Source: Terriglobia bacterium
GTDB lineage: Bacteria > Acidobacteriota > Vicinamibacteria > Vicinamibacterales > CAVVIG01
Direction: 5' to 3'
Assembly (NCBI GenBank): GCA_020073005.1
Contig: JAIQFX010000055.1
Span: 1 to 35,576, forward strand
Length of the DNA stretch: 35,576 bases
This document shows positions 17,087 to 32,629 of this stretch, one piece after another. The position numbers and the translations under genes were made by a program. A model generated the notes under the pieces. That model was not told the origin of the DNA, searched no databases, and was given only the letters and a program-made list of their open reading frames with translations. The first letter of the stretch is position 1, and every line of letters starts with the position of its first letter.

Positions 17087-17163
17087 TCACTCACCGTAAC
17101 ACGGACACTGGCGACCGGCAACGCGATCGAATCCGCTCTGACGTGAGTGATTCCGCGTCGGCG

Positions 17164-18453: not shown

Positions 18454-19601
18454 GCGTGATTCACGATCGGCTCGGTGACCTCGTTCGGCACGTAGGCGCA
18501 GAGCGGATCGGACGCCATCACGGCGCCGGTCGCGGCGAACGCGCGCGATCGCGAGCCGCCGCAGATCGCGCGGAAGCGGCAGCGCCCGCAGTTGCCCATC
18601 AGCGCGTTGGGATCCCGCAGACGCGTGAACACGTCGTCGGTCCGATACACGTCGGCCAGATTCATCGTCCGGACGTTGCCGCGCTGGACCGGCAGGAAGC
18701 CGCTCGGACAGATGTTGCCGACGTGATCGACGAAGACGAAGCCGTTGCCGTCGCCGACGCTTCGCGGCGCGCGCAGCTGGCGCTTGCGTTCGACCGAATG
18801 CGTCGGCAGGCCTTGCGCCAGCCGCGCGTGATCGCGCTCCCAGACGATGCGCTGGTAGTGCGGCGCTTCGGTGGTCTTGATGCCGAAGGGCGACGTCAGC
18901 GACAGGTCGTACAGGAAATTCAGGACGCGCTCGCACTCCTCGGCCGAGATCTGATCCAGGCTCGCGCCGCGGCCGGTCTGAATGAGGAAGAACAGCGCCC
19001 ACAGCGTCACCGGCAGATGCATCATGCGATCGGCCATCGCCTCGAGATACGGCAGCGTCAGCTTGCTGATCGTCGAGTTGATCTGGAGCGGCAGCCCGAG
19101 ATCGAGCGTGGACTCGATGATCCGCATCGTCCACGCGTGCGAGCCGCGCACGCGGCGGAAGGCGTCGTGCGCTTCCGGCGTCGGGCCGTCGAGGCTCACC
19201 GCCACGCGCGAGAGCCCGGCGTCCTTGAGCTCGGCGAGCCGCGCGCGCGTCGCGGCCGCCGTCCCGCTCGGCGTCAGCGCGACCGTGAGCCCGGCGCTCG
19301 ACGCGTAGCCGACGAGCTGCGCGAGATCCGGCCGCCGCATCGGATCGCCGCCGGTGAGGACGAACAGCGGCGGGGGGGCCTGCCCCGAGCTTGTCGAGGG
19401 GCCGCCGATGGCGCGCACCTGATCGATCAACCGGAATCCTTCCTCGGTGGTCAGCTCGTGCGTATCGCGACACGGGATCGCGTCCGCGCGGCAGTGGACG
19501 CACGCGAGCGCGCACGCCCGGGTCACTTCCCAAATCACGAGAAACGGCGCTCGGTCGAAATCGAACGCCGGACGCGCAGCGGGTTTCGGCAACGGGGTCA
19601 T
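18450..19601 (-). CDS. Radical SAM/SPASM protein, TIGR04053/heme-maturation-like
   Basis: This is a 383-residue radical SAM enzyme. The N-terminus FLVIWEVTRACALACVHCRAD carries the cluster cysteines C30, C34 and C37 (CxxxCxxC), followed by TGGDPMRRPDL and VSLDGPTPEAHD. The C-terminal SPASM-type region has CPSGFLPVQRGNV, NCGRCRFRAICGGSRSRAFA and a final CAY for auxiliary clusters. The shape is that of the AhbC/AhbD/NirJ relatives, which modify heme or its precursors, and of the TIGR04053 group; which one applies is not resolvable here. A 12-residue PSTSSGQ-containing insertion (about 67-78) comes from an interspersed element. AGAGGAGACTG precedes the ATG. It heads an operon divergent from the nos operon. 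Confidence 0.8.
   Translation of the reverse strand: MTPLPKPAARPAFDFDRAPFLVIWEVTRACALACVHCRADAIPCRDTHELTTEEGFRLIDQVRAIGGPSTSSGQAPPPLFVLTGGDPMRRPDLAQLVGYASSAGLTVALTPSGTAAATRARLAELKDAGLSRVAVSLDGPTPEAHDAFRRVRGSHAWTMRIIESTLDLGLPLQINSTISKLTLPYLEAMADRMMHLPVTLWALFFLIQTGRGASLDQISAEECERVLNFLYDLSLTSPFGIKTTEAPHYQRIVWERDHARLAQGLPTHSVERKRQLRAPRSVGDGNGFVFVDHVGNICPSGFLPVQRGNVRTMNLADVYRTDDVFTRLRDPNALMGNCGRCRFRAICGGSRSRAFAATGAVMASDPLCAYVPNEVTEPIVNHA
19377..19402 (-). repeat. Interspersed element, family II (copy 2, inside the radical SAM gene)
   Basis: The minus strand reads GGCCCCTCGACAAGCTCGGG then GCAGGCC. It is translated in frame as GPSTSSGQAP between two conserved blocks, RLIDQVRAIGG and LFVLTGGDP, so it appears to be an insertion tolerated in a loop. 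Confidence 0.75.
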
Positions 19602-19647: not shown

Positions 19648-19663
19648 TATGACGGGCGTCACC
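19648..19663. promoter_or_regulatory. Candidate Crp/Fnr-type operator for the radical SAM operon
   Basis: TATGAC-GGGC-GTCACC keeps the TGAC-N4-GTCA core and one full half-site of the palindrome at 31836-31851. Its centre is about 54 bp before the radical SAM start codon (19601), the same range as for the nos and ric copies. The second half-site has two outer mismatches. Confidence 0.55.
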
Positions 19664-19806
19664 TAGCGAAAAACGGGCCACCTTTTCATGTGGCCCCGGA
19701 TTTGCGACTTGTCTGTCGTTGCGACGCTGTACGACGCGATCCCGGTCATCGAACGGGGGAATTTCCCCATCCGGCTGCGCATCTTTCCGGGAATCCGGCA
19801 ACAGCT

Positions 19807-19822
19807 TATGGCCCGGGTCATA
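19807..19822. promoter_or_regulatory. Candidate Crp/Fnr-type operator for the nos operon
   Basis: TATGGC-CCGG-GTCATA differs at one base from the perfect palindrome TATGAC-N4-GTCATA near the crp/fnr gene. Its centre lies about 50 bp before the ATG of the first nos-operon gene (19865). If it acts at -41.5, transcription would start about 9 bp upstream of the ATG, with CATGCT (19844-19849) as a weak -10. Confidence 0.65.
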
Positions 19823-19864
19823 GGGCCGTAACCGGCCCCGTTTCATGCTGCCAGTAGAGAGCCG

Positions 19865-21784
19865 ATGACGATTCCGATTCGCTTCCCCGACGTCGACCAC
19901 TGGAAGGCGCAGGTGAAGTGTCAGAGCGCGTGTCCGGTGAACACCGACGCGGGCCGCTACGTGCAGCTTATCGCGGACGGCCGGGACGAGGACGCCTTTC
20001 TGGTGGCGCGCGCGCCGAATCCGTTCGCGTCGATCTGCGGACGGGTCTGCGCCGCGCCGTGCGAGGACGCGTGCCGCCGGGGCGCGATCGACGGCGCGGT
20101 CGCGATTCGCGCGCTGAAGCGCTTCGTCACTGAGAAGTACGGCGCCGAGTCGACGCGCCCCGACACGCAGGATCGCCTGCGCGACGAGCCGATCGCGGAA
20201 GGCAATCGCTACGTCAATCAGACGCCGCTGAAGCTGTTCAGAAACGCGGGCGAGGCCTCCGCGAAGGGAAGCCGACGCAAGGTCGCGATTGTCGGCGCCG
20301 GACCGGCGGGTCTGTCGGCGGCGAACGATCTCGCGCTGCTCGGCTACGACGTGACCGTGTTCGAGGCCGCCGCGGAACCGGGCGGCATGGTCCGCTTCGG
20401 CATTCCCGAGTACCGGCTCCCGCGGACGCTGATTCGCTCCGAGATCGAAAAGATTCTCGGCCTCGGCGTCCAGCTCAAGCTGAACACGCCGCTCACGTCG
20501 TCGTTCGGCCTCGCGCAGCTCGAGGCGCAGGGGTTCGACGCGATCTTCCTCGGCGTCGGCGTCTCGAAAGGCCGCGACCTCGACGTGCCCGGCGTCGAGC
20601 TCGACGGCGTCGTCAAGGCCGTCGACTACCTGCTCAACGTCAACCGCGGCTATCGCATGGATCTCGGCCGGCGCATCGTCGTCATCGGCGGCGGGTTCGT
20701 TGCGTTCGATGCGGCGCGAACCGCGATGCGCGAAGGCGGGACGGCGGACGAAGGCGCGGCCGCGGCCGCCGAGGCGCGCGTGAAGGAAGCGCTGGACTCC
20801 GCCCGCGCGGCGATTCGCGGCGGGGCGCGCGACGTGACCGTCGTCTCGCTCGAGAACTTCGACGAGATGCCGGTCCTGCGCACGACGCAGGGCCACGAGG
20901 AGTTCGAAGAGGCGCGCAAGGAGGGCGTGAAGTTCGTCACGCGCCGCGGCGCGGCGAGGTTCGTCGGATCAGGACGCGTGCAGACGATCGATCTGCGGCG
21001 AGTCACCGCCGTGTTCGACGCCAACGGCCGCTTCGCCCCGCAGTACGACGACAGCGATCTGATCGCGATCGACGCGGACTCGTGCATCCTCGCGATCGGC
21101 CAGAAGCCGGACCTCTCGTTCCTCACGCCGGCCGACGGCATCACGCTGACGCCCGGCGGCACGATCCGCATCGACGCCGACACGCTCGCCACGTCCGCGC
21201 CCGGCGTGTTCGCCGGCGGCGACGTCGCGTTCGGTCCGCGCAATCTGATCGAAGCGGTTGCCAACGGCAAGCGCGCCGCGCGATCGATGCACGCGTACCT
21301 GTCGCGTAGCGCGAGGCTTCAGCCGAGCGAAACGATCGACATCGAGCATCTGCCGTCGCGCGCCTACCGGATGATCGCGGGCTTCGAAGCGCTCGACCGC
21401 GAGGCCGCGCCGACGCTCGACGTCGGACGCCGCACCGGCATCGCGGAAGTGGAAACCGGTTACGACGAGCGCGAGGCGCGGGAGCAGGCGGCGCGCTGCC
21501 TCGTCTGCCACGTGCAGACGATCTACGACCCCGAGAAGTGCGTCATCTGCAACCGCTGCGTCGACGTCTGCCCGGAGTACTGCCTCGCGTTCGTGCCGAT
21601 CGATCAGCTCGACCTGGACGCCGGCGCGCGCGCGTCGCTCGTCGCCCGCGCTGAAGGTGACGGGATGCCGCTCGCCGCGATGGTGAAAGACGACGAGCGG
21701 TGCATCCGGTGCGGGCTGTGCGCCATCCGGTGCCCGACCGACGCGATGACGATGGAGCGATTCACGATCACGGAGCAGCTATGA
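19865..21784 (+). CDS. FAD/NAD(P)-dependent oxidoreductase with N- and C-terminal iron-sulfur domains (GltD-like), first gene of the nos operon
   Basis: This 639-residue flavoprotein has three parts. Residues 1-75 form the GltD/DPD-type cluster domain, with C19, C23, C58, C62, C66 and C70 in CQSACPV and CGRVCAAPCEDACRRG. Residues about 138-500 form two Rossmann units, FAD in AIVGAGPAGLSAAN (GAGPAG 144-149) and NAD(P) in VVIGGGFVAFDAART near 276-290, with GVFAGGDVAFGPRNLIEAVANGK closing the FAD site. Residues about 545-630 are a two-cluster ferredoxin, CVICNRCVDVCP and CIRCGLCAIRCP, plus CLVCH. No glutamate synthase large subunit is nearby, so this is not GltD proper. It is coupled by ATGA to a Rieske gene. 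Similar NAD(P) oxidoreductase subunits are known in some Rieske/cytochrome b complexes, such as those of anammox bacteria. An interspersed element is read through at about residues 481-488. Confidence 0.88.
   Translation: MTIPIRFPDVDHWKAQVKCQSACPVNTDAGRYVQLIADGRDEDAFLVARAPNPFASICGRVCAAPCEDACRRGAIDGAVAIRALKRFVTEKYGAESTRPDTQDRLRDEPIAEGNRYVNQTPLKLFRNAGEASAKGSRRKVAIVGAGPAGLSAANDLALLGYDVTVFEAAAEPGGMVRFGIPEYRLPRTLIRSEIEKILGLGVQLKLNTPLTSSFGLAQLEAQGFDAIFLGVGVSKGRDLDVPGVELDGVVKAVDYLLNVNRGYRMDLGRRIVVIGGGFVAFDAARTAMREGGTADEGAAAAAEARVKEALDSARAAIRGGARDVTVVSLENFDEMPVLRTTQGHEEFEEARKEGVKFVTRRGAARFVGSGRVQTIDLRRVTAVFDANGRFAPQYDDSDLIAIDADSCILAIGQKPDLSFLTPADGITLTPGGTIRIDADTLATSAPGVFAGGDVAFGPRNLIEAVANGKRAARSMHAYLSRSARLQPSETIDIEHLPSRAYRMIAGFEALDREAAPTLDVGRRTGIAEVETGYDEREAREQAARCLVCHVQTIYDPEKCVICNRCVDVCPEYCLAFVPIDQLDLDAGARASLVARAEGDGMPLAAMVKDDERCIRCGLCAIRCPTDAMTMERFTITEQL
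21306..21329 (+). repeat. Interspersed palindromic element, family I (copy 3, inside the flavoprotein gene)
   Basis: GTAGC then GCGAGGCTTCAGCCGAGCG is a family I variant with the perfect arms GAGGCT/AGCC and one fewer T. It is read in frame as SARLQPSE between the FAD domain and the ferredoxin linker. Confidence 0.7.
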
Positions 21785-22287
21785 CCGAACACGCAGTCGA
21801 TCGGCGGGACTTCATCTTTCGCGTCGGCACCGGCGCCGGCATCGCGGCGATCGTGTATCAGGCGTCGGCGTCGCTGCGGTCGCTCGTGCCGAACGTCTCG
21901 TACGACGCGCCGACGACGGTCAAGCTGGGCCCCGTCGCTGAATTTCCGGACGGCCTGAAGTTCCTGCCCGACGAGCGGCTCTTCGTGTTCCGCGAGGGCA
22001 ACACGTTCCACGCGATCTCGGCGGTGTGCACGCACCTCGGCTGCACCGCGCGCGCCGAGGCGCTGCCGTCGCCGGAGGCCAAAGAGATCGGCGGGAAGTC
22101 GCTCCGGCTGACGCACCGGTTCCAGTGTCCGTGCCACGGATCGAAATACAACGGCGACGGCTCGAACGTGTCCGGTCCGGCGCCGAAGCCGCTGGCCTGG
22201 TACCACCTGTCCCTCGCTTCCGACGACGGGCAGCTCGTCGTCGATCTCGCGCACGAAGTCGAGCACGACTTCCGGCTCACGGTGTAA
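21781..22287 (+). CDS. Rieske iron-sulfur protein
   Basis: This 168-residue protein has an N-terminal segment VDRRDFIFRVGTGAGIAAIVYQ, a twin-arginine-like signal with an uncleaved membrane anchor as in bc-complex Rieske proteins. The [2Fe-2S] ligands are in CTHLGC and CPCHGSKYNGDGSNVSGPAP. The conserved SGPAPKPLAWYHL follows the second box, and the two cysteines beyond the histidines can form the stabilising disulfide. It overlaps the flavoprotein stop (ATGA) and is followed within 4 bp by cytochrome b. It belongs to the dedicated bc-type complex of this nos operon. Confidence 0.95.
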   Translation: MTEHAVDRRDFIFRVGTGAGIAAIVYQASASLRSLVPNVSYDAPTTVKLGPVAEFPDGLKFLPDERLFVFREGNTFHAISAVCTHLGCTARAEALPSPEAKEIGGKSLRLTHRFQCPCHGSKYNGDGSNVSGPAPKPLAWYHLSLASDDGQLVVDLAHEVEHDFRLTV

Positions 22288-22291
22288 GGCC

Positions 22292-23647
22292 ATGGCCAAG
22301 CCGACAACGTCTTCAGGCGTCCAGCGTTCGACCGCGACCGCGCCCGGCGTGCACCCGCGTCCGTTCTGGAGCGTGCGGCCGCAGACCGATCGCCAGTCGG
22401 GCGACGCGATCGTCTCCAACTTCCTGCTGCACTGGTTCCCGGCCAAGACCTGCAAGCCGTCGATGAACTGGACGTACTCGTTCTGGCTCGGGACCATGTC
22501 GGCCGCGCTCCTGCTGCTGCTCGTGCTGTCGGGCGGGCCGCTGCTGTTCCTCTACGTGCCGTCGGTCGAGCGCGCGTACGCGTCGATCAAGGACATCGAG
22601 TTCGCGGTGACGTTCGGATCGTGGATCCGGTCCGTGCACCGCATGGCCGCGCACCTCATGGTCGCCGCCGTGTTCCTGCACCTCGTCCGCGTCTTCCTGA
22701 CGGGCGCCTACAAGAACGGCATCGGTCAGGGACAGCGGCGCGAGTGGAACTGGCTCATCGGCGTGGCGATGCTGCTGCTCACGCTGCTGCTCTCGTTCAC
22801 CGGATATCTGCTGCCGTGGGATCAGCTGGCGTACTGGGCGGTGACGGTGGGCACGAACATCGCGTCATCGATTCCGGTAATCGGGCCCACGGTGCGCGAG
22901 CTGCTGCTCGGCGGCCGCGCCATCGATCAGCCGACGCTGATTCGCTTCTACGTGCTGCACGTGATCGTGCTGCCTGGCGCGCTCGGCGGGTTGTTCCTCT
23001 ATCACATGTGGCGCGTCCGCAAGGACGGCGGTCTCGCCAAGGCGGACTCGGTCGCGCTGCTCGGCGATCGGATCGAGACCGCGCCGGTCAAGACGAAGAC
23101 CTATACGCTGCTCGGCGTCGCGCGCGGGACTGCACCGACGGTGCGCGCGTCCACGATTGAAGCGCCGGACCTGACCGTGAACTCGGTTCCCGATCTGACG
23201 CGGCGCATCGCCATCGTCGTGCTGGGCACGATCGCCCTGCTCAGCCTGTTCGCCGTCTACGTGCGATCGCCGCTCGAGGAAGCGGCCAACGCGCTCGTCA
23301 CGCCGAATCCGGCGAAGGCGCCCTGGTACTTCCTCTGGCTGCAGGAAATCGTCACCGACACGACCGTCCGGATCGGCTCGTTCACGATCAACGGCGCGTT
23401 CATCGGCGGCGTCGTGCTGCCCGGACTGCTGGTCACGCTGCTCACGGTGTGGCCGTGGATCGACAAGAGTCCGCTGGCCGCCGCCGGCGTCTGGTTCCCG
23501 CGCACGCGTCGCGCGCAGAACACGGCGTTCCTCGCGATTGTCGGGATCGTGATCGTGTTCACGTTGATCGGCACCTTCTGCCGTGGACCGTACTGGAACC
23601 TCTACTGGCCGTGGCAGGCGTGGCCGGAGATACCGACACGGTTGTGA
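22292..23647 (+). CDS. Cytochrome b of a Rieske/cytochrome b complex (b6 and subunit IV in one chain)
   Basis: This is a 451-residue quinol-oxidising membrane subunit. The first half is b6-like: SWIRSVHRMAAHLMVAAVFLHLVRV and FYVLHVIVLPGALGGLFLYHM supply the two pairs of heme b histidines, and SFTGYLLPWDQLAYWAVTVGT is the Qo-proximal segment. After a soluble loop of about 60 residues the second half begins with TPNPAKAPWYFLWLQE, the subunit IV-like motif where PEWY normally stands, and has three more helices. The N-terminal 40 residues are an extra soluble stretch. It sits between the Rieske and multiheme cytochrome genes. The complex probably passes quinol electrons to the following cytochrome c. 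The stop codon lies at the start of repeat tract H. Confidence 0.95.
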   Translation: MAKPTTSSGVQRSTATAPGVHPRPFWSVRPQTDRQSGDAIVSNFLLHWFPAKTCKPSMNWTYSFWLGTMSAALLLLLVLSGGPLLFLYVPSVERAYASIKDIEFAVTFGSWIRSVHRMAAHLMVAAVFLHLVRVFLTGAYKNGIGQGQRREWNWLIGVAMLLLTLLLSFTGYLLPWDQLAYWAVTVGTNIASSIPVIGPTVRELLLGGRAIDQPTLIRFYVLHVIVLPGALGGLFLYHMWRVRKDGGLAKADSVALLGDRIETAPVKTKTYTLLGVARGTAPTVRASTIEAPDLTVNSVPDLTRRIAIVVLGTIALLSLFAVYVRSPLEEAANALVTPNPAKAPWYFLWLQEIVTDTTVRIGSFTINGAFIGGVVLPGLLVTLLTVWPWIDKSPLAAAGVWFPRTRRAQNTAFLAIVGIVIVFTLIGTFCRGPYWNLYWPWQAWPEIPTRL

Positions 23648-23684
23648 TTGGGTGATTGAGTGATTTGGTGATTGGGTGATTTGA
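23644..23684. repeat. Octamer-period tract H (cytochrome b/cytochrome c junction)
   Basis: The units TGATTGGG, TGATTGAG, TGATTTGG, TGATTGGG and TGATTTGA cover the cytochrome b stop codon and fill the whole 38-bp spacer up to the next ATG, so the next gene has no ordinary Shine-Dalgarno sequence. Confidence 0.9.
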
Positions 23685-23685
23685 C

Positions 23686-24915
23686 ATGGAGCAGCGCACC
23701 ACTTCCCCGTATCCGCGGCTCGACAAGCCCGTGCTGGCGGTTGTCGGGCTCGTGCTCGTCCTGGGCGCGGTGCTGTTCACGATCAACGACCGCGAGCACG
23801 AGTGGCGCTACTACCAGTACCAGTTCCGCCGCGTCGTCGCGGACAAGCTCGGCGCCGAGAAAGCGCGCACCGTGCCGTCGGGCCTGCAGCAGATCTGGGT
23901 GCCGTCGCTCGGCCACGCGGACCGCTGCGTCACGTGTCACCAGGCGGTGGCCTGGAACGGTTTCGAGGCCGCCGAGGAACCGTACCGCACGCACTCCGCG
24001 GAGCCGCTGAAGAACCATCCGATCGAGAAGTTCGGGTGCTCGTCCTGCCACGGCGGCCAGGGGTGGGCCGTGGACGTCGGGCCCGCGCACGGCCCGGTCG
24101 AGCATTGGGAAGAGCCGCTGCTCGGCCGCCAGCTGGGCACCGAGTACTCGCTCGTCGACAACAAAGCGGCGCTGATGCAGATGAACTGCAACACGTGTCA
24201 CCGCTACGACCGCGAGACCAAAAGCGCCGATTTCATCAACCTCGCGAAGGCGATCGTGAACGCGAGAGGCTGCCGCGCGTGCCACGTGATCAACAGCCGC
24301 GGCGGCACGATCGGTCCCGATCTCACCTTCGTCGGCGACAAGGCGCCGGAACAGTACGAGTACGGCCGGTTGTCGGGGCAGAAGACGGCGTTCGCGTGGC
24401 ACGTCGCGCACCTGAAGGATCCGCGCGCGCTCGTCGCCGACACCGTCATGCCGAACTTCAACCTGACGACGAAGGAAGCGCAGGCGCTCGCGATCCTGAT
24501 CCTGTCGTGGCGCAAGTCGCCGGTGCCGGCCGCGATGGTACCGGGCACGCCGCGCACGGATCCACAGACCGCCGACGAGCGCGCGGCGGAAGAGGCGATG
24601 AAAGCCGGGCCGGGCGCGTGGTTCGTCAAGACCGGCTGCTTCGTCTGCCACTCGATCGCCGCGCTCGGCGTGAAGAGCCCGGCGCAGATCGGTCCCGATC
24701 TCTCGACGGCCGTGGACGACGTGCAGAGCCGGTTCGGACGCACCGTCGACGACTTCCTCGCATCACCGACGGGCACGATGTCGGTCGTGCTGTCGCGCCA
24801 GATCGTCCTCACGCCGGCGGAAAAAGCGATCGCGGTGCAGAAACTGCGCGAAGCGTTCGCGGAATACCAGAAGCAGAAGGCCGCGGTGAAAACGGTCGCG
24901 GCCAGAAGTCATTGA
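23686..24915 (+). CDS. Membrane-anchored five-heme cytochrome c
   Basis: This 409-residue protein has an N-terminal uncleaved helix (about 16-33), so it is tethered with its bulk in the periplasm. Five CxxCH sites are seen: CVTCH (81-85), CSSCH (118-122), CNTCH (168-172), CRACH (196-200) and CFVCH (308-312). The first three sit in a multiheme-type module with few other motifs. The fourth and fifth begin ordinary cytochrome c domains, with IGPDLTFVGDK...VMPNF and IGPDLSTAVDD giving likely Met ligands. The place after cytochrome b and before nosZ makes it the natural electron link between the bc complex and NosZ, replacing a cytochrome c1. It has no good ribosome binding site because of tract H. 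Confidence 0.92.
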   Translation: MEQRTTSPYPRLDKPVLAVVGLVLVLGAVLFTINDREHEWRYYQYQFRRVVADKLGAEKARTVPSGLQQIWVPSLGHADRCVTCHQAVAWNGFEAAEEPYRTHSAEPLKNHPIEKFGCSSCHGGQGWAVDVGPAHGPVEHWEEPLLGRQLGTEYSLVDNKAALMQMNCNTCHRYDRETKSADFINLAKAIVNARGCRACHVINSRGGTIGPDLTFVGDKAPEQYEYGRLSGQKTAFAWHVAHLKDPRALVADTVMPNFNLTTKEAQALAILILSWRKSPVPAAMVPGTPRTDPQTADERAAEEAMKAGPGAWFVKTGCFVCHSIAALGVKSPAQIGPDLSTAVDDVQSRFGRTVDDFLASPTGTMSVVLSRQIVLTPAEKAIAVQKLREAFAEYQKQKAAVKTVAARSH

Positions 24916-24949
24916 GCACTCACAGACGCTGTTCATCCAAGGAGCGCAT

Positions 24950-26806
24950 ATGAAGTCGACGAAAGTCATCTGGGGAAGCGCGGCGCTGATGGTCCTGGCG
25001 CTGCCGGCCATCGGCTGCGCGCCGAGCGCGCCGGCCGGCGCGAAGAGAACCGCGGCGGGCGCGTCCGACATCGCCGTCGCCGCGCAGAAAACGTTCGTCG
25101 CGCCGGGCGACCTGGACGAGTACTACATGTTCGCGTCCGGCGGGCACTCCGGCAACGTGTACGTGTACGGCATCCCGTCGATGCGTCACCTCAGCACGAT
25201 TCCCGTCTACTCGCCGTACCCGGCCACCGGCTACGGCTTCGACGACGACAGCCGCAAGATGCTGGGCAATCTCACGTGGGGCGACGTGCACCATCCGTCG
25301 CTGTCGGAAACCAACGGCGACTACGACGGCCGCTGGCTCTTCGTCAACGACATGAACGGCCGCATCGCGCGCATCGATCTCCGCGACTTCAAGACGAAAC
25401 AGATTCTCGGGCCCGTCGCGAACATTTCCGGCAACCACTCGGGCGCGTTCGTCACGCCGAACACGGAATACGCGATGATGGGCACCCGCTTCTCGATTCC
25501 GATTCCGAAGGGCACCGTCGTGCCCATCGAAAAATACGCGACCGAATACAAGGGCGTCGTCGCCGGCGTGAAGATCGACAAGACCTCCGGCGAGATGTCG
25601 CTCGGCTGGGAAGTCATGCTGCCGCCGTTCGACTTCGACCTCGGCGACGCGGGCAAGAAAGTCTCGGACGGCTGGATGTTCTGGACGTCGTACAACGCCG
25701 AGCGCGCGACCGGCAAGCTCGAGGTGACGGCGTCGCAGCGCGACCGCGACTACATCGCCGCGGTCGACTGGCGCGCGGCCGAGAAGGCGATCGCCGACGG
25801 CAAGGGCGACATGATCGGCGGCGTCAAGGTCATCGATCCGAAGAAAGTGCCGGGCATCGTGTACCTGATGCCCTGCGGCAAATCGCCGCACGGCGTCGAC
25901 GTTGCGCCGAACGGCAAGTGGATCGTCGGATCGGGCAAGCTGCAGGGCGTCACGACGGTCTTCAACTTCGAGAAGATCCAGACCGCGATCCGCAACAAGG
26001 ACTTCACGGGCGAGGAAGACGGCATCCCGGTCCTGAAGTACGAATCGATCAAGGAAGCCGAAGTGACCGTCGGCCTCGGGCCGCTGCACACGCAGTTCGG
26101 CCCGGACGACTTCGCGTACACGTCGCTCTTCGTCGACAGCGCGATCGCGAAGTGGAAGCTCGGGACATGGGAAGTTGTTGATAAGGTCCCGATGTCGTAC
26201 TCGATCGGCCACCTCGCCGCGGCCGAGGGCGACACGGTGTCGCCGGACGGCAAGTACCTCGTCGGCCTGAACAAGCTGTCGCACGGCCGCCATCTCTCGG
26301 TCGGGCCGTCGCAGCCCGAGTCCTCGCAGCTGGTCGACATCAGCGAGGAGAAGATGAAGCTGCTGTACGACGCGTTCACGGAGCCCGAGCCGCACTACGC
26401 GCAGATCGTCAAAGCCGACAAGCTGCACCCGATCGAGGTGTACCCGAAAGAGGAGAACAAGCACCCGCTCGCCGTGTGGGACGTGAAGGACACGGGCGTC
26501 ACGCGCAACGGCACGAACGTCACCGTGAAGGCCGTGCTCGTGCGCTCGACGATCACGCCGACCTCGGTGACGGTGAACCAGGGCGACACGCTGACGGTCG
26601 CGATCACGAACATCGAGCAGACGACGGACGAGCTCCATGGCTTCGGGCTGCTCGACTACAACATGAACGTCGTCGTCGATCCGGGCGAGACCAAGACGTT
26701 CACGATCAAAGCCGACAAGCCGGGCGTGTTCCCGTACTACTGCACGAATTTCTGTTCGGCGCTGCATCAGGAGATGCAGGGGTACTTGATCGTCAACAAG
26801 AAGTGA
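24950..26806 (+). CDS. nosZ: Nitrous oxide reductase, clade II (Sec-exported)
   Basis: NosZ reduces N2O to N2 in the periplasm. AAGGAG at 24939-24944 fixes the ATG. Residues 1-23 are a Sec signal ending in PAIGC, a lipobox-like site (Cys23), not a Tat signal; Sec export is a mark of clade II. The seven-bladed propeller carries CuZ histidines, including GDVHHPSLSETNGDYDG (His114, His115), a clade II form of the motif, plus GNHSGAF, KSPHGVD, LGPLHTQFG and GHLAAAEGD. The C-terminal cupredoxin has the CuA site CTNFCSALHQEM (Cys598, Cys602, His606, Met609). The length of 618 residues is normal. It is followed by nosB across heptamer tract I. Confidence 0.98.
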   Translation: MKSTKVIWGSAALMVLALPAIGCAPSAPAGAKRTAAGASDIAVAAQKTFVAPGDLDEYYMFASGGHSGNVYVYGIPSMRHLSTIPVYSPYPATGYGFDDDSRKMLGNLTWGDVHHPSLSETNGDYDGRWLFVNDMNGRIARIDLRDFKTKQILGPVANISGNHSGAFVTPNTEYAMMGTRFSIPIPKGTVVPIEKYATEYKGVVAGVKIDKTSGEMSLGWEVMLPPFDFDLGDAGKKVSDGWMFWTSYNAERATGKLEVTASQRDRDYIAAVDWRAAEKAIADGKGDMIGGVKVIDPKKVPGIVYLMPCGKSPHGVDVAPNGKWIVGSGKLQGVTTVFNFEKIQTAIRNKDFTGEEDGIPVLKYESIKEAEVTVGLGPLHTQFGPDDFAYTSLFVDSAIAKWKLGTWEVVDKVPMSYSIGHLAAAEGDTVSPDGKYLVGLNKLSHGRHLSVGPSQPESSQLVDISEEKMKLLYDAFTEPEPHYAQIVKADKLHPIEVYPKEENKHPLAVWDVKDTGVTRNGTNVTVKAVLVRSTITPTSVTVNQGDTLTVAITNIEQTTDELHGFGLLDYNMNVVVDPGETKTFTIKADKPGVFPYYCTNFCSALHQEMQGYLIVNKK

Positions 26807-26865
26807 GAAGGCAGAAGGCAGAAGGCAGAAGGCAAAAGGCAAAAGGCAAAAGGCTGACGGAGACT
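26806..26865. repeat. Heptamer-period tract I (nosZ/nosB spacer)
   Basis: Four GAAGGCA units and then AAAGGCA units start at the nosZ stop codon and run for about 57 bp, ending with AAAGGCT. The nosB ribosome binding region (CAGGGAGCAGG) begins just after it. Confidence 0.9.
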
Positions 26866-26878
26866 CAGGGAGCAGGTT

Positions 26879-27517
26879 ATGACCATCGTTCAACGCACGA
26901 ATCGCTTCTTCGAGCTGTCGCTCAATCTGCGCGAGCGGGCGCTCGTGGTCGTGGCCGCGCTGTTGCTCGGCTCGGTCTACCTGCTTCCGCTCTGGAACCT
27001 GACGATGTTCGCGCCGCAGTACCCCGACGGGCTGCGCATGAACATCTACAGCTACAAGCTCGAGGGCGGGAACGCGGGGCAGGACGTCAAGGAAATCAAC
27101 GTGCTCAACCACTACATCGGCATGAAGGATCTCGCGGCGGAGGACTTCACCGAGTTCAAGTGGATGCCGTTCGTCGTCGGCGCCATCGGCCTGCTGTGTC
27201 TTCGCACGGCGGCGCATGGACGCATGATGGATCTCGTCGACGTCACCGTGCTCTACACGTACTTCGCGGCGTTTTCGTTATGGTCGTTCGGGTACAAGTT
27301 GTACAGCTACGGCCACAGCCTGGCGCCGACCGCCGCGGTGAAGGTCGCGCCGTTCATGCCGCCGATGTTCGGCCACAAGAAGCTCGCGAACTTCGATGTC
27401 TACTCGTATCCCGCGGCGGGCTCGTACCTGCTGACCCTGGTGGTCGTGTTGCTGGTCGCGGCGCTGTGGCTCGCGTGGCGCGACGATGCGCCGGCGGTGA
27501 TGACAGTGGACACGTAG
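26879..27517 (+). CDS. nosB: NosB, membrane protein of clade II nos clusters
   Basis: This 212-residue protein has about four hydrophobic helices (near 20-42, 97-112, 122-142 and 183-199). The segment LPLWNLTMFAPQYPDGLRMNIYSYKLEGGN...INVLNHYIGMKDL between helices 1 and 2 is the recognisable signature of NosB, which occurs with Sec-type NosZ and not in classical clade I clusters. Its biochemical role is unsettled; it is thought to matter for N2O reduction in Epsilonproteobacteria such as Wolinella. GGGAGCAGGTT precedes the ATG. The stop codon TAG is part of an interspersed element that fills the space to nosD. Confidence 0.9.
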   Translation: MTIVQRTNRFFELSLNLRERALVVVAALLLGSVYLLPLWNLTMFAPQYPDGLRMNIYSYKLEGGNAGQDVKEINVLNHYIGMKDLAAEDFTEFKWMPFVVGAIGLLCLRTAAHGRMMDLVDVTVLYTYFAAFSLWSFGYKLYSYGHSLAPTAAVKVAPFMPPMFGHKKLANFDVYSYPAAGSYLLTLVVVLLVAALWLAWRDDAPAVMTVDT

Positions 27518-27567
27518 CGCGAGGCTTTCAGCCGAGCGTGATGGCTCGCCTGAAAGGCTCGCCCTAC
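27514..27567. repeat. Interspersed palindromic element, family I, inverted pair (nosB/nosD spacer)
   Basis: A plus-strand copy (27514-27538, GTAGC then GCGAGGCTTTCAGCCGAGCG) is followed after 5 bp by a minus-strand copy (27544-27567, GCTCGCCTGAAAGGCTCGCC then CTAC). The two can pair with each other, like a REP doublet. The nosB stop codon is within the first copy. Confidence 0.8.
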
Positions 27568-27584
27568 ATCGGTGGGACAGACCG

Positions 27585-28937
27585 ATGCTGACGTTCGTGA
27601 TCGCGATCGCACTCGCCGGACAAGCCGACATGACCGCGCCGGCGGCGGCGATGATCGACGGACGGCCGTCCGCGCGCGAGGTGTCGCCGCTGCAGCCGCT
27701 CGTCGACGCGGCGCCGGCGGGATCGACGCTGGAGATTCCGCCCGGCCGGTACGTCGGTGACGTGTTCGTCGACAAGCCGCTGCGGCTCGTCGGCCGCGGC
27801 CGGCCCGTGCTCGTCGGCTCGACGGCCGGCAGCGTCATCCGCGTGCGCGCGGCCGGCGTCGTGATCGAGGGACTCGACATCGACGGCCTCGGCGGCGGCG
27901 ATCTCGGCCGCGACGCCTCGGGCATCCACATCGCCGCGCACGACGCGGTCGTCCGCGACTGCCGCATCGTCAACACGCTGTTCGGCGTGTACCTGCGCGA
28001 GGCGGACGGCACGCTCGTCGAGCGCACGACGATCCGCGGCATTCCTGGCAAGGACGCGGGCGAAAAGGGATCGGGCATCCACGTCTGGAACACGAACGGG
28101 TTCCGTCTGGTCGGCAACACGATCGCCGATGTCCGCGACGGCCTCTACATCCAGTCCTCGTCGGGCGGCTTCATCGCGAAGAACACGGCGCGCGATCTGC
28201 GGTACGGCATCCACTACATGTTCTCCGACGACAACGTCTTCGAGGACAACGTCTTCGAAAACGGCGCCGCCGGCTCGGCGCTGATGTACTCGCGACGGAT
28301 CGCGTTCCGGCGCAATCAGTTTCTCCACAATCGCGGCTTCGCGTCCGTCGGCCTGCTGCTGAAGGCGTGCGACGACGTCGTCGCCGAGGACAATTTGATC
28401 GCGGACAACGCGCGGGGCATCTTCCTCGAGGGGTCGTACCATAACCGCTTCCGCCGGAACATCATCGCGGAGTCGGACACGGCGATCGTGCTGTACGACT
28501 CGTCCGGCGACAATCGCTTCGAGCAGAATTCGTTCGTCGCCAACCTGACGCCGCTCTCGCTCGTCGGCAAACGGACGGACACCGCCTTCGACGGCAACTA
28601 CTGGTCGGATCACCACGAGCCCGATCTCGACGGCGACGGCCGCAGCGATCGTCCGTACCGCTTGTCGAGCGTGTTCGATCACCTGCGATCGAATCTCACG
28701 GCGGCCGATCTCTTCACGCAGTCGTTCGCGGCGGCGGCGCTCGGCGCCGCCGAGCGGACGTTCCCCGTGCTCGACGCCATTCCGGTCGAGGATCACGCGC
28801 CGCTGGCGCGTCCGCCGGCGCTGCCTGACGTGCCGCGCGGCACCGCAGGCGCGCGCGGACCGAACGCGGCCGGCCTCGCGGCGGCGGCGGCGATGCTCGT
28901 GTTCGGCCTTGGCGCGATTGCGCGCGTGCGATCATGA
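27585..28937 (+). CDS. nosD: NosD, copper-site maturation protein of NosZ
   Basis: NosD is a periplasmic right-handed beta-helix (CASH domain) protein needed with NosF and NosY to load the CuZ centre. The 450-residue protein has the repeated helix rungs: GVVIEGLDIDG, AVVRDCRIVNTLFGVYLREAD, GFRLVGNTIADVRDGLYIQSSS, RDLRYGIHYMFSDDNVFEDNVFENG, and FRRNIIAESDTAIVLYDSSGDNRFEQN. The conserved NYWSDHHEPDLDGDGRSDRPYR follows. A hydrophobic C-terminal helix (about 429-445) probably tethers it to the membrane. The signal sequence is short (MLTFVIAIALAGQA). nosF starts inside its stop (ATGA). Confidence 0.95.
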   Translation: MLTFVIAIALAGQADMTAPAAAMIDGRPSAREVSPLQPLVDAAPAGSTLEIPPGRYVGDVFVDKPLRLVGRGRPVLVGSTAGSVIRVRAAGVVIEGLDIDGLGGGDLGRDASGIHIAAHDAVVRDCRIVNTLFGVYLREADGTLVERTTIRGIPGKDAGEKGSGIHVWNTNGFRLVGNTIADVRDGLYIQSSSGGFIAKNTARDLRYGIHYMFSDDNVFEDNVFENGAAGSALMYSRRIAFRRNQFLHNRGFASVGLLLKACDDVVAEDNLIADNARGIFLEGSYHNRFRRNIIAESDTAIVLYDSSGDNRFEQNSFVANLTPLSLVGKRTDTAFDGNYWSDHHEPDLDGDGRSDRPYRLSSVFDHLRSNLTAADLFTQSFAAAALGAAERTFPVLDAIPVEDHAPLARPPALPDVPRGTAGARGPNAAGLAAAAAMLVFGLGAIARVRS

Positions 28938-29833
28938 TCACCTTCCGCCGGTTCACGAAGACGTTCGCGGCGCAACCCGCGGTCCGCGATCTGTCGCTCG
29001 AGATCGCCGGCGGCGAAGCCGTCGCGCTGCTGGGCCCGAACGGCTCGGGCAAGACGACGACGCTGAAGGCGGCCGCGGGGCTCATCCGCCCGACGTCGGG
29101 CGACGTGCTGATCGGCGAGCCGGGAGTGACGGCGCGCGATCCGCGCGCGCGCCGGGCGTTGTCGTTTCTCCCGCAGCGCGTCGCGTTTCCCGAGTCGCTG
29201 ACGGGGCGCGAAGTCATCGATTTCTACCGGCGGCTGCGCGGCGTGGAGCCGGCGGCCGCGGACGCGGCGCTCACGCTCGCGTCGCTGAACGGGTCGAGCA
29301 ACCGCGCGATCTCGACGTACTCCGGCGGGATGGTGCAGCGGCTGGGCCTCGCGGTCGCGCTCCTGCCGTCGTCGCCCGTGATGCTGCTCGACGAGCCGAC
29401 GGCCGCGCTCGATCCCGACGGCCTGTGCGCGTTCTACAGCGTCATCGAGCATCGCAAGGCCGCAGGGCAGACGATCCTCTTCACGTCGCATCAGCTCGGC
29501 GACGCCGAGCGGCTCGCCGATCGATTTGCGATCCTGGTCGAAGGCACGCTGGCCGCGCTCCTGACGGCGAGGGAGCTGGGCGATCGCCTGGCGTCGCGCG
29601 GCGTGCTGCGTCTGCGCATCGAGAACGCGCCGGCGGATCTGTTCGATCGTCTGCGGCGTCTGTCGCCCGGCGCGACGCGCGCCGGCGATCAGTGGATTGT
29701 GCCCGGCCCCGCCGGTTCACGACCGGCCGTCGTCGACCTCGTCCGCGAGAGCGGCGCGTCGATTCTCGGCCTGACCGCGGAAGAAGGACGGCTGGACGTC
29801 TTCTATCGCGATCTCGTCGGAGGCCGGTCATGA
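28934..29833 (+). CDS. nosF: NosF, ABC transporter ATPase
   Basis: NosF is the cytoplasmic ATPase that powers the NosDFY maturation complex. In 299 residues it shows Walker A GPNGSGKTTT, the Q-loop region LSFLPQRVAFPESLTG, the signature YSGGMVQRLGLA, Walker B VMLLDEPTAALDP, and the switch histidine in FTSHQLGD. The C-terminal 90 residues form the usual accessory domain. The start and stop codons overlap nosD and nosL by ATGA, giving a strictly coupled D-F-L-Y series. Confidence 0.95.
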   Translation: MITFRRFTKTFAAQPAVRDLSLEIAGGEAVALLGPNGSGKTTTLKAAAGLIRPTSGDVLIGEPGVTARDPRARRALSFLPQRVAFPESLTGREVIDFYRRLRGVEPAAADAALTLASLNGSSNRAISTYSGGMVQRLGLAVALLPSSPVMLLDEPTAALDPDGLCAFYSVIEHRKAAGQTILFTSHQLGDAERLADRFAILVEGTLAALLTARELGDRLASRGVLRLRIENAPADLFDRLRRLSPGATRAGDQWIVPGPAGSRPAVVDLVRESGASILGLTAEEGRLDVFYRDLVGGRS

Positions 29834-30285
29834 CGCGCGGGCCGGCAATCGCGGCCGTGTGTGTTGCGGCGGGGATCGCCTGCCGCAGCGGAGTGCCGCA
29901 GCCCGCCGCGCTCGACACGAAGAACGACACGTGCAGCTCCTGCCGCATGACCGTTTCGGATCAGCGCCTCGCGGCGCAGATCGTCGCGCCGGGCGAAGAG
30001 CCGCGCTTCTTCGACGATCTCGGCTGTCTCAGAAAATATCTCGACGAGCACGAGCAGCCCGACGCGGTCGTGTACGTCGCGGACCACCGGACCGGCGAGT
30101 GGATGCCCGCGACCAGCGCCGTCTACTCGCGGCTCGCGCGCGCGTCGACGCCGATGGCATCCGGACTCATCGCGCACGCGACCGTGGGCTCGCGATCCCA
30201 GGACACAGGCGCGGCCGGCACCGTGCCGGTCGGCGCGGATATCGTCCTCGGCAGCCGGATGCTCGCCGGGAGGCCGCAGCCATGA
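29830..30285 (+). CDS. nosL: NosL, copper chaperone lipoprotein
   Basis: NosL delivers Cu(I) for NosZ maturation at the outer face of the inner membrane. The 151-residue protein has a short signal with Cys18 (AAGIACRSG) as the probable lipidated residue, although the -3 position is not typical. The copper-binding core is DTCSSCRMTVSDQRLAAQIV, followed by PRFFDDLGCLRKYL, YVADHRTGEWMPATSAVYSRL and the conserved TPMASGLIAHAT. These are standard NosL blocks. It is coupled at both ends by ATGA overlaps. Confidence 0.93.
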   Translation: MTRGPAIAAVCVAAGIACRSGVPQPAALDTKNDTCSSCRMTVSDQRLAAQIVAPGEEPRFFDDLGCLRKYLDEHEQPDAVVYVADHRTGEWMPATSAVYSRLARASTPMASGLIAHATVGSRSQDTGAAGTVPVGADIVLGSRMLAGRPQP

Positions 30286-31121
30286 CCACGGCGTCGGTCC
30301 TGTGGCTGTGTGCGTCGCAGGAGCTCGTGCTGGCGATGCGCGCGCGCGCGACGCAGATCTTCGCGCTCGTCTTCGCGGCGCTCGCGCTGGCCGTGTCGGC
30401 GTCCGGCTACATCCTCTCCGGCGGCAGCGGCGTCCAGGACTTCGCGCGCACGGCGACGTCGCTCACGGAGCTCGTGCTGTTCGTCGTGCCGATGATGGCG
30501 CTGCTCGTCGGCACGACGGCGTTCTCGCCGGATCAGGGGGCGGCGGAGCTGCTGTTCTCGCAGCCGGTCGCGCGGCGGACGCTGATGTGGGGCAGGCTGC
30601 TCGGATTGTTCGCGGCGCTCGTCGCGGCGCAGGCGATCGGTTTCGGCGTCAGCGGCCTCGTGATCTTCTCGCAGTCGGGTCAGGACGGCCTGGCGTCGTT
30701 TCTGCTCCTCGGCGCCGCGTCCGTCGCGCTGACGGCCGTGTCGCTCAGCGCAGCGGCGCTGATCGCCGGCGGGTCGGCGGGCCGCCGCCGCGCGCGTGCG
30801 CTGGCGATTGCGCTGTGCGTCTGGTTCGTCGCGGTCGTGCTCTACGATCTCGTCGCGCTCGGCCTGGCGTCGCTGCTGCGATCGGGCCCCGCGTCGCGGC
30901 TCCTCATCACCGCCACGCTCGCCAATCCGGTCGACGCCGTCCGCACGGGCGTGCTGCTCGGCATCCAGGGCACGTCCGCGTTCGGATCGGCCTCGCTCGC
31001 GCTGCTGCGCTTCACCGGCGGGACCACGCGCGCGGCGCTCCTGATCGTCGCCGGCGTGATGGTCTGGATCGTCGTCCCGGCGCTGGCGGCCGCGCGCCGG
31101 CTCGAACGCGCCGACATCTGA
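30282..31121 (+). CDS. nosY: NosY, ABC transporter permease
   Basis: This is the membrane subunit of the NosDFY complex. The 279 residues contain about six transmembrane helices, with the ABC-2 type features TSLTELVLFVVPMMALLVGTTAFSPDQGAAELLFSQPVARRTLMWGRLLG. The cytoplasmic coupling segment is SAGRRRARALAIA, and the late GPASRLLITATLANPVDAVRTGVLLG is typical of NosY. It is the last gene of the nos operon and ends 5 bp from the convergent crp/fnr gene, so any terminator must overlap coding sequence. Confidence 0.94.
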   Translation: MTTASVLWLCASQELVLAMRARATQIFALVFAALALAVSASGYILSGGSGVQDFARTATSLTELVLFVVPMMALLVGTTAFSPDQGAAELLFSQPVARRTLMWGRLLGLFAALVAAQAIGFGVSGLVIFSQSGQDGLASFLLLGAASVALTAVSLSAAALIAGGSAGRRRARALAIALCVWFVAVVLYDLVALGLASLLRSGPASRLLITATLANPVDAVRTGVLLGIQGTSAFGSASLALLRFTGGTTRAALLIVAGVMVWIVVPALAAARRLERADI

Positions 31122-31126
31122 TCGGA

Positions 31127-31816
31127 CTATTCCTGCGCGACGGACTCGAGCGCGGCGCGATCGACGACGAGGAAGCCGTCTTTGTCGGTGCGGACGATGT
31201 CCTGCTTGCCCCAGCGGCTCATGATGCGGATCGAAGTCTCGATCGTCGTCCCGATCATGTCGGCGATTTCCTGGCGGGAGAGCACCAGCGGGATGAACAC
31301 GCCGTCGGGCCGCTGCTGGCCCATGTCCTTCGCGAGCTTGAGAAAGAACCGCGCGAGACGCGCTTCGACGCGGCCGCCCGACAGCTCCGTGAGCCGGTTC
31401 GTCAGCTCGACGAGCCGGTGGGTGAGCCCGACGAGCAGGCCGCGGACCATCGTCGGATGCGTTTCGAGCAGCGTGAAGAACGCCTGCCGCGGGATGAGGA
31501 AGCACGTGGTCGGCTCGAGCGCGACGGCCGTGGCCGGATACGCCCGCGATTCGTACACGGCGACCGCGCCGACGGGATCGCCGGGCCCGAAGAGCTCGAG
31601 GATGACGTCGGTGCCGCGCGCCGTCACCTTGAAGACCTTCACGCGCCCGGTGACGACGGTGTAGAGCGAGTCGGACGCGTCGCCTTCGCTGAAGAGCGTC
31701 GCGCCCTTGTCGAACTCGCGCACGTGGGCGACGGCCGCGAGCCGCTGGCGATCGTCGGGCGTCAAGCGCCGGAAGATCGTCGATCGGCGGAGGATTTCGT
31801 CGAGCGGCTCGGGCAT
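31127..31816 (-). CDS. Crp/Fnr family transcription regulator
   Basis: This 229-residue regulator has a cyclic-nucleotide-fold sensor domain (about 12-130: FSEGDASDSLYTVVTGRVKVFKV, LELFGPGDPVGAVAVYE), a dimer helix, and a C-terminal winged helix with VLSRQEIADMIGTTIETSIRIMSRW. Only one cysteine is present in the sensor domain and there is no N-terminal cysteine set, so it is not an oxygen-sensing [4Fe-4S] FNR; a DNR/NnrR-like heme or ligand sensor is possible. The recognition helix matches that of FNR at the Glu and Arg that read the TGA core (IET--R) but has Ile where FNR has Ser212. A perfect palindrome lies 20 bp before its start, and ric diverges from it. Confidence 0.93.
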   Translation of the reverse strand: MPEPLDEILRRSTIFRRLTPDDRQRLAAVAHVREFDKGATLFSEGDASDSLYTVVTGRVKVFKVTARGTDVILELFGPGDPVGAVAVYESRAYPATAVALEPTTCFLIPRQAFFTLLETHPTMVRGLLVGLTHRLVELTNRLTELSGGRVEARLARFFLKLAKDMGQQRPDGVFIPLVLSRQEIADMIGTTIETSIRIMSRWGKQDIVRTDKDGFLVVDRAALESVAQE

Positions 31817-31835
31817 CGCGGCCTATTGTGCCCGA

Positions 31836-31851
31836 TATGACGCCGGTCATA
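31836..31851. promoter_or_regulatory. Perfect palindromic operator between crp/fnr and ric
   Basis: TATGAC-GCCG-GTCATA is a perfect 6-bp inverted repeat with a 4-bp spacer, the geometry of Crp/Fnr sites (FNR: TTGAT-N4-ATCAA). Its centre is about 57 bp before the ric ATG, suited to activation, and about 27 bp before the crp/fnr ATG, suited to autorepression. Close relatives occur at 19807-19822 and 19648-19663. Confidence 0.75.
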
Positions 31852-31900
31852 CCGCCGAATCCGGCCGCCGCGTACGCTGGAGGCACATCAGGAGCCTGTC

Positions 31901-32629
31901 ATGAATGAACGATTCGAGCACGCGACCGTCGGGGACATCGTCGCCGCTGACTTTCGAACGGCTGGCGTGTTCGAAAGCTTCGGCATCGACTTCTGTTGCG
32001 GCGGCCGCCGATCGCTGGAGGACGCCTGTCGTGGCGCCGTCGCGAATCCCGAGGCCGTCATTCGCGCGCTCGAGGCGCTGCCGCCTGCGACCGCGACGGA
32101 CGATGACGCCACGCGCTGGCCCGTCGATCGCCTGATCGATCACATCCTCGCCCGGCATCATGCCTACGTGCGATCCGCGACGCCGACGATCGCGCGCTAT
32201 CTCGCGAAGCTCCACGAGGTGCACGGCGCCCGGCATCCGGAACTGGCGCGCATCGCGACGATCTTCGAGCAGGTGAGCGGCGATCTCGAGCAGCACATGT
32301 TCAAGGAGGAGCAGATCCTGTTCCCCTACATGCGCGACCTCGGCGAGCGCGCGGGGCAGGCGTGCGGCTTCGGCATGAGCCCGTTCGGCACGGTCGAGAA
32401 TCCGATCCGCATGATGGAGCGCGAGCATCGCGAGGCGGCCGACGAGCTGCGGCTGATTCGCGAGCTGACCAACGGCTACACGCCGCCCGCGGACGGCTGC
32501 ACGACGTATCAGGTCTGCATGGCCGAGCTCGCCCAGTTCGAGCGCGACCTGCATCGTCACGTGCATCTCGAGAACAACGTGCTCTTCCCGAAAGCCGTCG
32601 AGCTCGAGAAACAGTCCGTCGGCGCGTGA
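31901..32629 (+). CDS. ric: Iron-sulfur cluster repair di-iron protein (RIC/YtfE/ScdA)
   Basis: RIC proteins repair iron-sulfur clusters damaged by nitric oxide or peroxide. The 242-residue protein starts with the ScdA_N domain (TVGDIVAADFRTAGVFESFGIDFCCGGRRSLEDAC, with the conserved CCGG). A hemerythrin-like domain from about residue 75 follows, whose metal ligands are offered by DHILARHHAYVR, QHMFKEEQILFPYM, MEREHREAADEL and HRHVHLENNVLFP. AGGAG at 31890-31894 supports the ATG. It diverges from a Crp/Fnr gene, with the palindrome at 31836-31851 between them, an arrangement common for NO-responsive control. Confidence 0.96.
   Translation: MNERFEHATVGDIVAADFRTAGVFESFGIDFCCGGRRSLEDACRGAVANPEAVIRALEALPPATATDDDATRWPVDRLIDHILARHHAYVRSATPTIARYLAKLHEVHGARHPELARIATIFEQVSGDLEQHMFKEEQILFPYMRDLGERAGQACGFGMSPFGTVENPIRMMEREHREAADELRLIRELTNGYTPPADGCTTYQVCMAELAQFERDLHRHVHLENNVLFPKAVELEKQSVGA

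Follow-up and report, generated by a model that had tools for sequence, protein, structure and literature searches.

A candidate Crp/Fnr operator with an ATGAC half-site before nitrous oxide and nitric oxide genes of the Vicinamibacterales

The stretch of DNA considered here, called the window, comprises 35,576 nucleotides (positions 1 to 35,576 of contig JAIQFX010000055.1, forward strand, assembly GCA_020073005.1) from a Terriglobia bacterium of the order Vicinamibacterales. It carries an operon for nitrous oxide (N2O) reductase (nos), a gene for an iron-sulfur cluster repair di-iron protein (ric), a divergent gene for a Crp/Fnr-type regulator, and an operon headed by a radical SAM gene. Three copies of a palindrome, TATGAC-N4-GTCATA, stand before these genes. 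It is highly likely that the palindrome is the operator of this regulator, which would act as a class II activator of ric, the nos and radical SAM operons and a second nosZ operon (nos2) elsewhere in the genome. We call the system a candidate Crp/Fnr regulon of N2O and nitric oxide (NO) genes with a new specificity.

The three sites were pointed out by a sequence-only reading, whose positions and mismatch counts (0, 1 and 2) are confirmed (Table 1). The distances that it gave from site centre to start codon, about 57, 50, 54 and 27 base pairs (bp), are borne out as 57.5 bp for ric, 50.5 bp for the nos operon, 54.5 bp for the radical SAM gene and 27.5 bp for the regulator gene. With up to three mismatches allowed, the window contains 6 matches compared with 2.78 expected, and 6 were reached in 3 of 100 shuffles. 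Because this loose pattern is enriched just mildly, it is the low-mismatch sites that carry the signal.

Table 1. Positions of the candidate operator sites, promoter elements and genes in the window (HMM, hidden Markov model; aa, amino acids).
Feature	Position	Strand	Remarks
TATGACGCCGGTCATA	31836-31851		Perfect palindrome, 0 mismatches; between crp/fnr (-) and ric (+)
TATGGCCCGGGTCATA	19807-19822		1 mismatch; before nos operon
TATGACGGGCGTCACC	19648-19663		2 mismatches; before radical SAM operon
TACGCT	31873-31878	+	-10-like hexamer, proposed ric promoter; centred 32 bp downstream of palindrome centre
CATGCT	19844-19849	+	Weak -10-like hexamer (A and T kept); +32 from nos site centre
Crp/Fnr-type regulator	31127-31816	-	229 aa; proposed cognate factor; Pfam cNMP_binding and HTH_Crp_2
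ric	31901-32629	+	Iron-sulfur cluster repair di-iron protein; TIGR03652 244.8 bits, cut-off 204.7
nos operon	19865-31121	+	Pfam/NCBIfam matches
NosZ	24950-26806	+	Sec-dependent (clade II) type; passes TIGR04246 cut-off
212-aa protein	26879-27517	+	Between nosZ and nosD; no Pfam or NCBIfam match
Radical SAM/429-aa protein/multicopper oxidase operon	15737-19601	-	HMM matches
Radical SAM gene	18450-19601	-	Passes TIGR04053 cut-off
429-aa protein	17164-18453	-	Between radical SAM and multicopper oxidase; weak COX1 match under Pfam cut-off

The genome from which the window comes (5,857,670 bases in 179 contigs, or 5.86 Mb) was scanned with the palindrome, and with the reversed pattern as control. 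Only two perfect sites are found. One is the site between ric and the regulator gene; the other, at 808-823 of contig C57, precedes a gene for a cytochrome c/cupredoxin protein that is followed by the second nosZ, outside the window. The sole site with one mismatch is the nos site at 19807. Sixteen of the 20 sites with up to two mismatches were inspected (L001-L015; the remaining four are on C133, C155, C165 and C168). The four sites before nos, ric and the regulator gene, the radical SAM operon and nos2 are all intergenic, and 8 of the other 12 lie inside called genes.

Across the order, 162 genomes were searched for exact TATGAYNNNNRTCATA, with C or T allowed at the sixth base, again with the reversed pattern as control. 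The search returned 208 sites in 65 genomes, and 4 control hits. Orthologs of the regulator, defined at an expect value (E) <= 1e-60, are present in 59 of the 162 genomes. Exact sites occur in 56 of these 59 genomes compared with 9 of the 103 others, so that 56 genomes have both, 3 the regulator only, 9 the motif only and 94 neither (Fisher 5e-30, uncorrected for relatedness). The three genomes with a regulator and no exact site (G034, G073 and G078) have sites with 1-2 mismatches in the same loci. The association also holds within genera. In the 12 genera holding both kinds of genome, sites occur in 25 of 27 regulator genomes and in 1 of 23 others, according to a table compiled by hand from the motif scan and the ortholog search; this split was reached in none of 200,000 within-genus permutations.

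Regions were fetched around the sites (160 of 174, covering 192 of the 208 sites), and genes in them were called by a home-made codon-score method. The caller was trained on ten genes of the window, so gene starts are placed only approximately, and the method may break down in genomes of lower guanine-cytosine (GC) content (G121 and G122, 54-56% GC). None of the 192 sites lies inside a called gene, whereas 3050 of 3840 positions drawn at random from these loci do. Divergent genes flank 106 of the sites, 79 stand before one gene and 7 before none; most centre-to-start distances are 30-90 bp, and the longest reach 400. The scan of the genome and its relatives thus finds exact sites far above control, placed in promoters, recurring before the same operons and tracking the regulator, in keeping with the shared Crp/Fnr regulon of non-FNR specificity that the sequence-only reading had proposed.

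The sites also keep a fixed distance to what may be a promoter element. Among 227 oriented site-gene pairs, A is in excess at +30.5 from the site centre and T at +34.5. The pattern TAnnnT is centred at +32 in 68 pairs and at +33 in 16, while no other offset on either side exceeds 4; on sides without a gene it occurs in 4 of 91. In class II activation by Crp/Fnr proteins the site is centred at -41.5 and takes the place of the -35 element, which matches this spacing. A -10-like hexamer at +31 to +33 is present for 22 of 26 ric genes and 4 of 6 genes for NapH-like proteins. At the same place the window has one hexamer before ric and a weak one before nos (Table 1), and nos2 has TACGCT.

Further evidence comes from loci fetched independently of the motif. 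In a de novo search for inverted repeats, TATGAC-N4 ranked top before both the regulator gene (10 of 49) and ric (7 of 28), with a shuffled maximum of 1. Of 13 family loci, 8, the window's included, have a site with 0-1 mismatch to ATGAC-N4-GTCAT ahead of the regulator gene. The regulator very probably docks at the palindrome beside its own gene.

The ric genes were examined with TIGR03652 (E <= 1e-20). A ric gene is present in 52 of the 59 regulator genomes, and in 12 of 80 others searched (of 103). Thirty ric loci of regulator genomes, out of 67 matches and including that of the window, were inspected, and 14 have a site at <=1 mismatch within 300 bp. The corresponding figure for genomes lacking the regulator is 0 of 13, three of which have unclear starts. 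In 12 of the 14 site-bearing loci, 53-58 bp separate the site centre from the inferred start.

A second palindrome precedes some ric genes. With arms of five bases, the de novo search at ric ranks ATGAC first and TTGCG second, and perfect TTGCG-N4-CGCAA stands before eight ric loci (L341, L343, L349, L355, L358 and L364-L366), five in regulator genomes and three in others. The genome of the window and several relatives (L032, L034-L037) also encode an NnrR-like Crp/Fnr paralog, 31-33% identical to the regulator. There is therefore more than one candidate reader, and the TATGAC palindrome could be the operator of another such paralog, with the neighbouring regulator merely a target. This explanation is very improbable. 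The paralog has a different recognition helix, GTTLYTVSR or GTTLFTVSR (one GRTLYTVSR), and a different palindrome, which is found at other ric genes and, no more than about 110 bp ahead of the paralog's own gene, in four of five loci (L034-L037); in L032 it is more than 1 kb upstream. The form of the palindrome at these loci is TTGCGC-NN-GCGCAA. Moreover, site presence follows the present regulator within genera. The NnrR-like protein and TTGCG would then apparently be a second circuit on ric, orthogonal to the ATGAC system.

The genes beside the sites fit control of nitrogen oxide metabolism by the regulator. Pairing each site with genes within 400 bp gives 254 site-gene pairs in 93 clusters, of which 20 were covered by an HMM scan; a few others were identified through BLAST matches to genes of the window. 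The five largest clusters, counted as distinct genes, are ric (25), cytochrome c (20), the regulator (20), flavin adenine dinucleotide (FAD) oxidoreductase (12) and radical SAM (8). In the first cytochrome c cluster, 15 of 20 match the cytochrome of nos2. The idea that its members generally lead nosZ was rejected; NosZ is among the next three same-strand genes in 5 of 20. Smaller clusters include another cytochrome c (7 pairs), hemerythrin-PAS (6), NapH-like ferredoxin (6) and NosZ (4), and a 753-aa NorB-type NO reductase and NnrS are also among the targets. In 11 relatives NosZ lies 5.2-5.8 kb downstream of the FAD oxidoreductase site in the same orientation, as in the window. The eight radical SAM genes of relatives with an exact site at most 400 bp upstream make up 11 site-gene pairs.

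Several observations weigh against the reading of the palindrome as the operator of an activator of these genes. The -10-like hexamer is seen for only 7 of 16 cytochrome c genes, 2 of 11 FAD oxidoreductase genes and 1 of 4 NosZ genes, and for none of the 10 radical SAM, 6 hemerythrin-PAS and 2 NorB genes. The radical SAM promoter of the window has TGAGAC at the -10 position. For the regulator gene the count is 0 of 19, with GCCCGA in the window, and the site lies 27 bp before its start codon. Together with the radical SAM count, these figures favour the view that the regulator is mainly a repressor at its sites. As a general account this is improbable, given the near-constant distance at ric and the hexamer found there at class II spacing.

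Activation may therefore be graded target by target. Since the hexamer is present for ric and nos2, weak for the nos operon of the window and absent for the radical SAM and regulator genes, activation is best supported by this measure for ric and nos2, plausible for the window's nos operon and unsupported for the radical SAM operon, and the regulator gene is more likely repressed than activated. The activation predicted by the sequence-only reading is thus supported strongly for ric by the hexamer, and weakly or not at all for the lead genes of the other two units. Its suggestion of autorepression fits the lack of a hexamer at all 19 regulator genes, with which it is consistent.

Other points against the reading concern the sites themselves. 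In the genome of the window, sites with up to two mismatches number 20, and control hits 19. The concern that the motif might occur at background frequency thus applies at two mismatches and not to exact sites. As this is background level, the radical SAM site at 19648-19663 is not acceptable on its own sequence, and it is conservation that supports it. In genome G022, of the same genus, both intergenic sites are kept at homologous positions while much of the flanks has diverged; the nos site there has 0 mismatches and the radical SAM site, TATGACGGCCGTCATC, has one. The exact sites at the eight radical SAM genes of relatives lend it further support.

Genes were counted as themed if their best BLAST match in a set of reference proteins reached E <= 1e-6, weak matches included. 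Even by this generous rule, just 106 of the 192 sites have a themed gene in the adjoining runs, and the rest adjoin other or unannotated genes. One themed reference, L133 (149 aa), was assigned as a truncated haemoglobin by visual inspection and has no Pfam match. A themed gene is present at 1 of 17 sites of family f13 and at 1 of 11 of family f14. The f13 genomes (G121, G122 and G123; L238-L253) have many exact sites, which may mean a different regulon in this family or a failure of gene calling.

These low shares, and the equal count with the control at two mismatches, would fit an origin of the sites as chance palindromes or a mobile repeat. That origin is exceedingly improbable in view of the 208 exact sites compared with 4 for the control, their absence from genes and the fixed -10 spacing. 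The spacer and flanks of the sites also vary.

The match between site and regulator is likewise incomplete. At <=1 mismatch, 16 of the 30 ric loci of regulator genomes lack a site. Nine genomes with the motif have no close ortholog of the regulator; four of these (G140, G038, G046 and G150) lack any relative at E <= 1e-10, and G141, G040, G043 and G121 have weak relatives only. Where looked at, in G141 and for one relative in G043, the recognition helices differ from that of the regulator. The motif-rich genome G138, also without a close ortholog, encodes a 40% identical relative with the same helix type, GTTIETCIRLMSRW. In G138 and G141 (L254-L262) the -10 hexamer is at +31 to +33 in 8 of 11 sites, and a themed gene is beside 1 of 11. 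Beyond the order, the sampled genomes of the phylum include 22 with the regulator (41-63% identity, E <= 1e-45), of which just nine have exact sites; the 26 genomes scanned gave 17 exact sites compared with 3 control hits. Finally, the regulator and its targets come and go as one module, as the ric counts show, and this accounts for some of the co-occurrence.

The proposed cognate factor has both domains of the Crp/Fnr superfamily, the cyclic nucleotide-binding beta-roll (PF00027) and the Crp-type helix-turn-helix (PF13545), and the 16-bp palindrome with a TGA core before the proposed targets is of the kind known for operators of this superfamily. No NCBIfam model reaches its cut-off with the protein. 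Its predicted structure (predicted local distance difference test score 88.8) is most similar in fold to GlxR and CRP (template modelling score ~0.8, ~26% identity), and the fold search does not separate CRP-like from DNR-like proteins. The recognition helix, GTTIETSIRIMSRW, follows GTTIET[SACT]IRxMSRW and is almost unchanged across 50 orthologs. In an alignment to CRP of M. tuberculosis, the Glu of SRET corresponds to E193 and the Arg to I192; we take these to be positions 181 and 180 in the numbering of E. coli CRP. In the same alignment the cyclic AMP (cAMP) cassette of CRP is altered, from GE to GA and from RTSSA to YPATA, and the half-site TATGA differs from that of the CRP operator TGTGA-N6-TCACA. 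An FNR-type set of iron-sulfur (Fe-S) cysteines is absent from the 229 residues, whose one cysteine, C105, is kept in 43 of the 50 orthologs. No histidine is conserved among these (H31 in 8, H120 in 25 and H133 in 21); haem binding may nevertheless occur. Judging by the identity of the targets, the inducing signal would be NO, N2O or a related redox state.

The half-site ATGAC is identical to none of those compared: TTGAT of FNR and DNR, TTGAC or GTAAC of HcpR, TTGCG of NnrR and TGTGA of CRP. The accessible text of PMC1274295 gives the motifs of HcpR1 (TTGACnnnnGTCAA), HcpR2 (GTAACnnnnGTTAC), DNR (TTGATnnnnATCAA) and NnrR (ctTTGcgnnnncgCAAag) and relates bases of the motif to positions 180 and 181. 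By that text, HcpR1 (wyTTGACnnnnGTCAArw) resembles the present regulator as a Crp/Fnr protein of nitrogen oxide genes with an N4-spaced palindrome and a TGAC core, and neither has an Arg at CRP position 180 or an FNR-type cysteine set. The two differ in the first base of the half-site, TTGAC in HcpR1 and ATGAC here, and the targets differ from those of HcpR in being nos, ric and radical SAM operons. No hcp gene is among the target clusters annotated, which are the 20 of 93 scanned by HMM and the few identified by BLAST. No exact TTGACnnnnGTCAA occurs in 21 loci (L085-L105, five with close orthologs), and the motif of the de novo search is ATGAC.

Other known systems share the target theme. DNR and Anr are likewise Crp/Fnr activators of nitrogen oxide or anaerobic genes, and differ from the present regulator in half-site, the Anr box at katA being TTGac-N4-gtCAA in the accessible text of PMC4974557. 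The de novo half-site is ATGAC instead of that in TTGATnnnnATCAA, and in the 300 bp upstream of ric in the window no FNR-type match has fewer than 3 mismatches. NnrR, as described in the accessible text of PMC1274295, has the same target classes, and both palindromes stand before ric genes in the order; its TTGCG palindrome goes with the separate paralog (helix TLYTVSR), and the de novo motif before the regulator gene is ATGAC. NssA and NssB of Wolinella and Nitrosophilus (TTGA-N6-TCAA) are also Crp/Fnr proteins tied to clade II nosZ, and differ in half-site and phylum; the accessible text of PMC11539149 relates expression of one Nss regulator negatively to that of nosZ. No description of TATGAC-N4-GTCATA was found in the open-access literature searched. 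Its letters occur twice in the accessible part of PMC5398030, both in a primer table as chance matches.

Binding by the regulator and the direction of control are inferred from what the sequences show: the sites and their place in promoters, a fixed distance to a -10-like hexamer in many cases, conservation, and co-occurrence with the regulator. In the proposed mechanism, a dimer of the regulator would read the two ATGAC half-sites through its recognition helices and bind about 41-42 bp upstream of the transcription start. The operator would replace the -35 element, with a TAnnnT hexamer as -10 element 32 bp downstream of its centre, giving class II activation. Within the window, activation would extend to ric, to the nos operon and to the radical SAM/COX1-like/multicopper oxidase operon; outside it, the regulator would drive nos2. 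At the ric operator, which would also cover the promoter of the regulator gene, binding would probably repress that gene.

The genes under the sites are as follows. The nos operon encodes, in order, an FAD/Fe-S oxidoreductase, a Rieske protein, cytochrome b, cytochrome c, NosZ, the 212-aa protein, NosD, an ABC ATPase (NosF-like), a NosL-like protein and an ABC-2 permease (NosY-like). Relatives of the 212-aa protein adjoin nosZ in other genomes. The multicopper oxidase of the radical SAM operon scores far under the nitrite reductase cut-off. The whole trio is kept in G022, and the radical SAM and 429-aa proteins in other relatives.

The second nosZ operon spans L016:971-4047 on C57. Its NosZ reaches 595.7 bits with TIGR04244 and 534.6 with TIGR04246, under both nosZ cut-offs of 625, and the C-terminus of the lead protein resembles the NosZ cupredoxin domain. 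The open reading frame after this nosZ looks NosD-like, as judged by eye from its translation. Measured to the longest start of the cytochrome gene, the site centre is ~155 bp upstream, which would imply a long leader.

N2O is consumed by organisms with clade II nosZ, and to our knowledge little has been published on how nosZ is controlled outside Proteobacteria and Campylobacterota. For the Vicinamibacterales, whose named members in this analysis are metagenome-assembled genomes, the results supply a testable candidate operator with its proposed factor, the layout of the promoters and a list of targets. The two Crp/Fnr paralogs, whose different half-sites both occur before ric, would be useful for working out the recognition code. 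The sites also tie the uncharacterised radical SAM/COX1-like/multicopper oxidase operon to nitrogen oxide metabolism. More speculatively, and with considerable doubt, a Crp/Fnr lineage with an ATGAC code might run the N2O and NO metabolism of Acidobacteriota in parallel to an orthogonal NnrR-type circuit. Such a lineage might sense its signal without conserved haem histidines or Fe-S cysteines, possibly via Cys105, and the radical SAM/COX1-like/multicopper oxidase operon might then be an undescribed enzyme system for nitrogen oxides.

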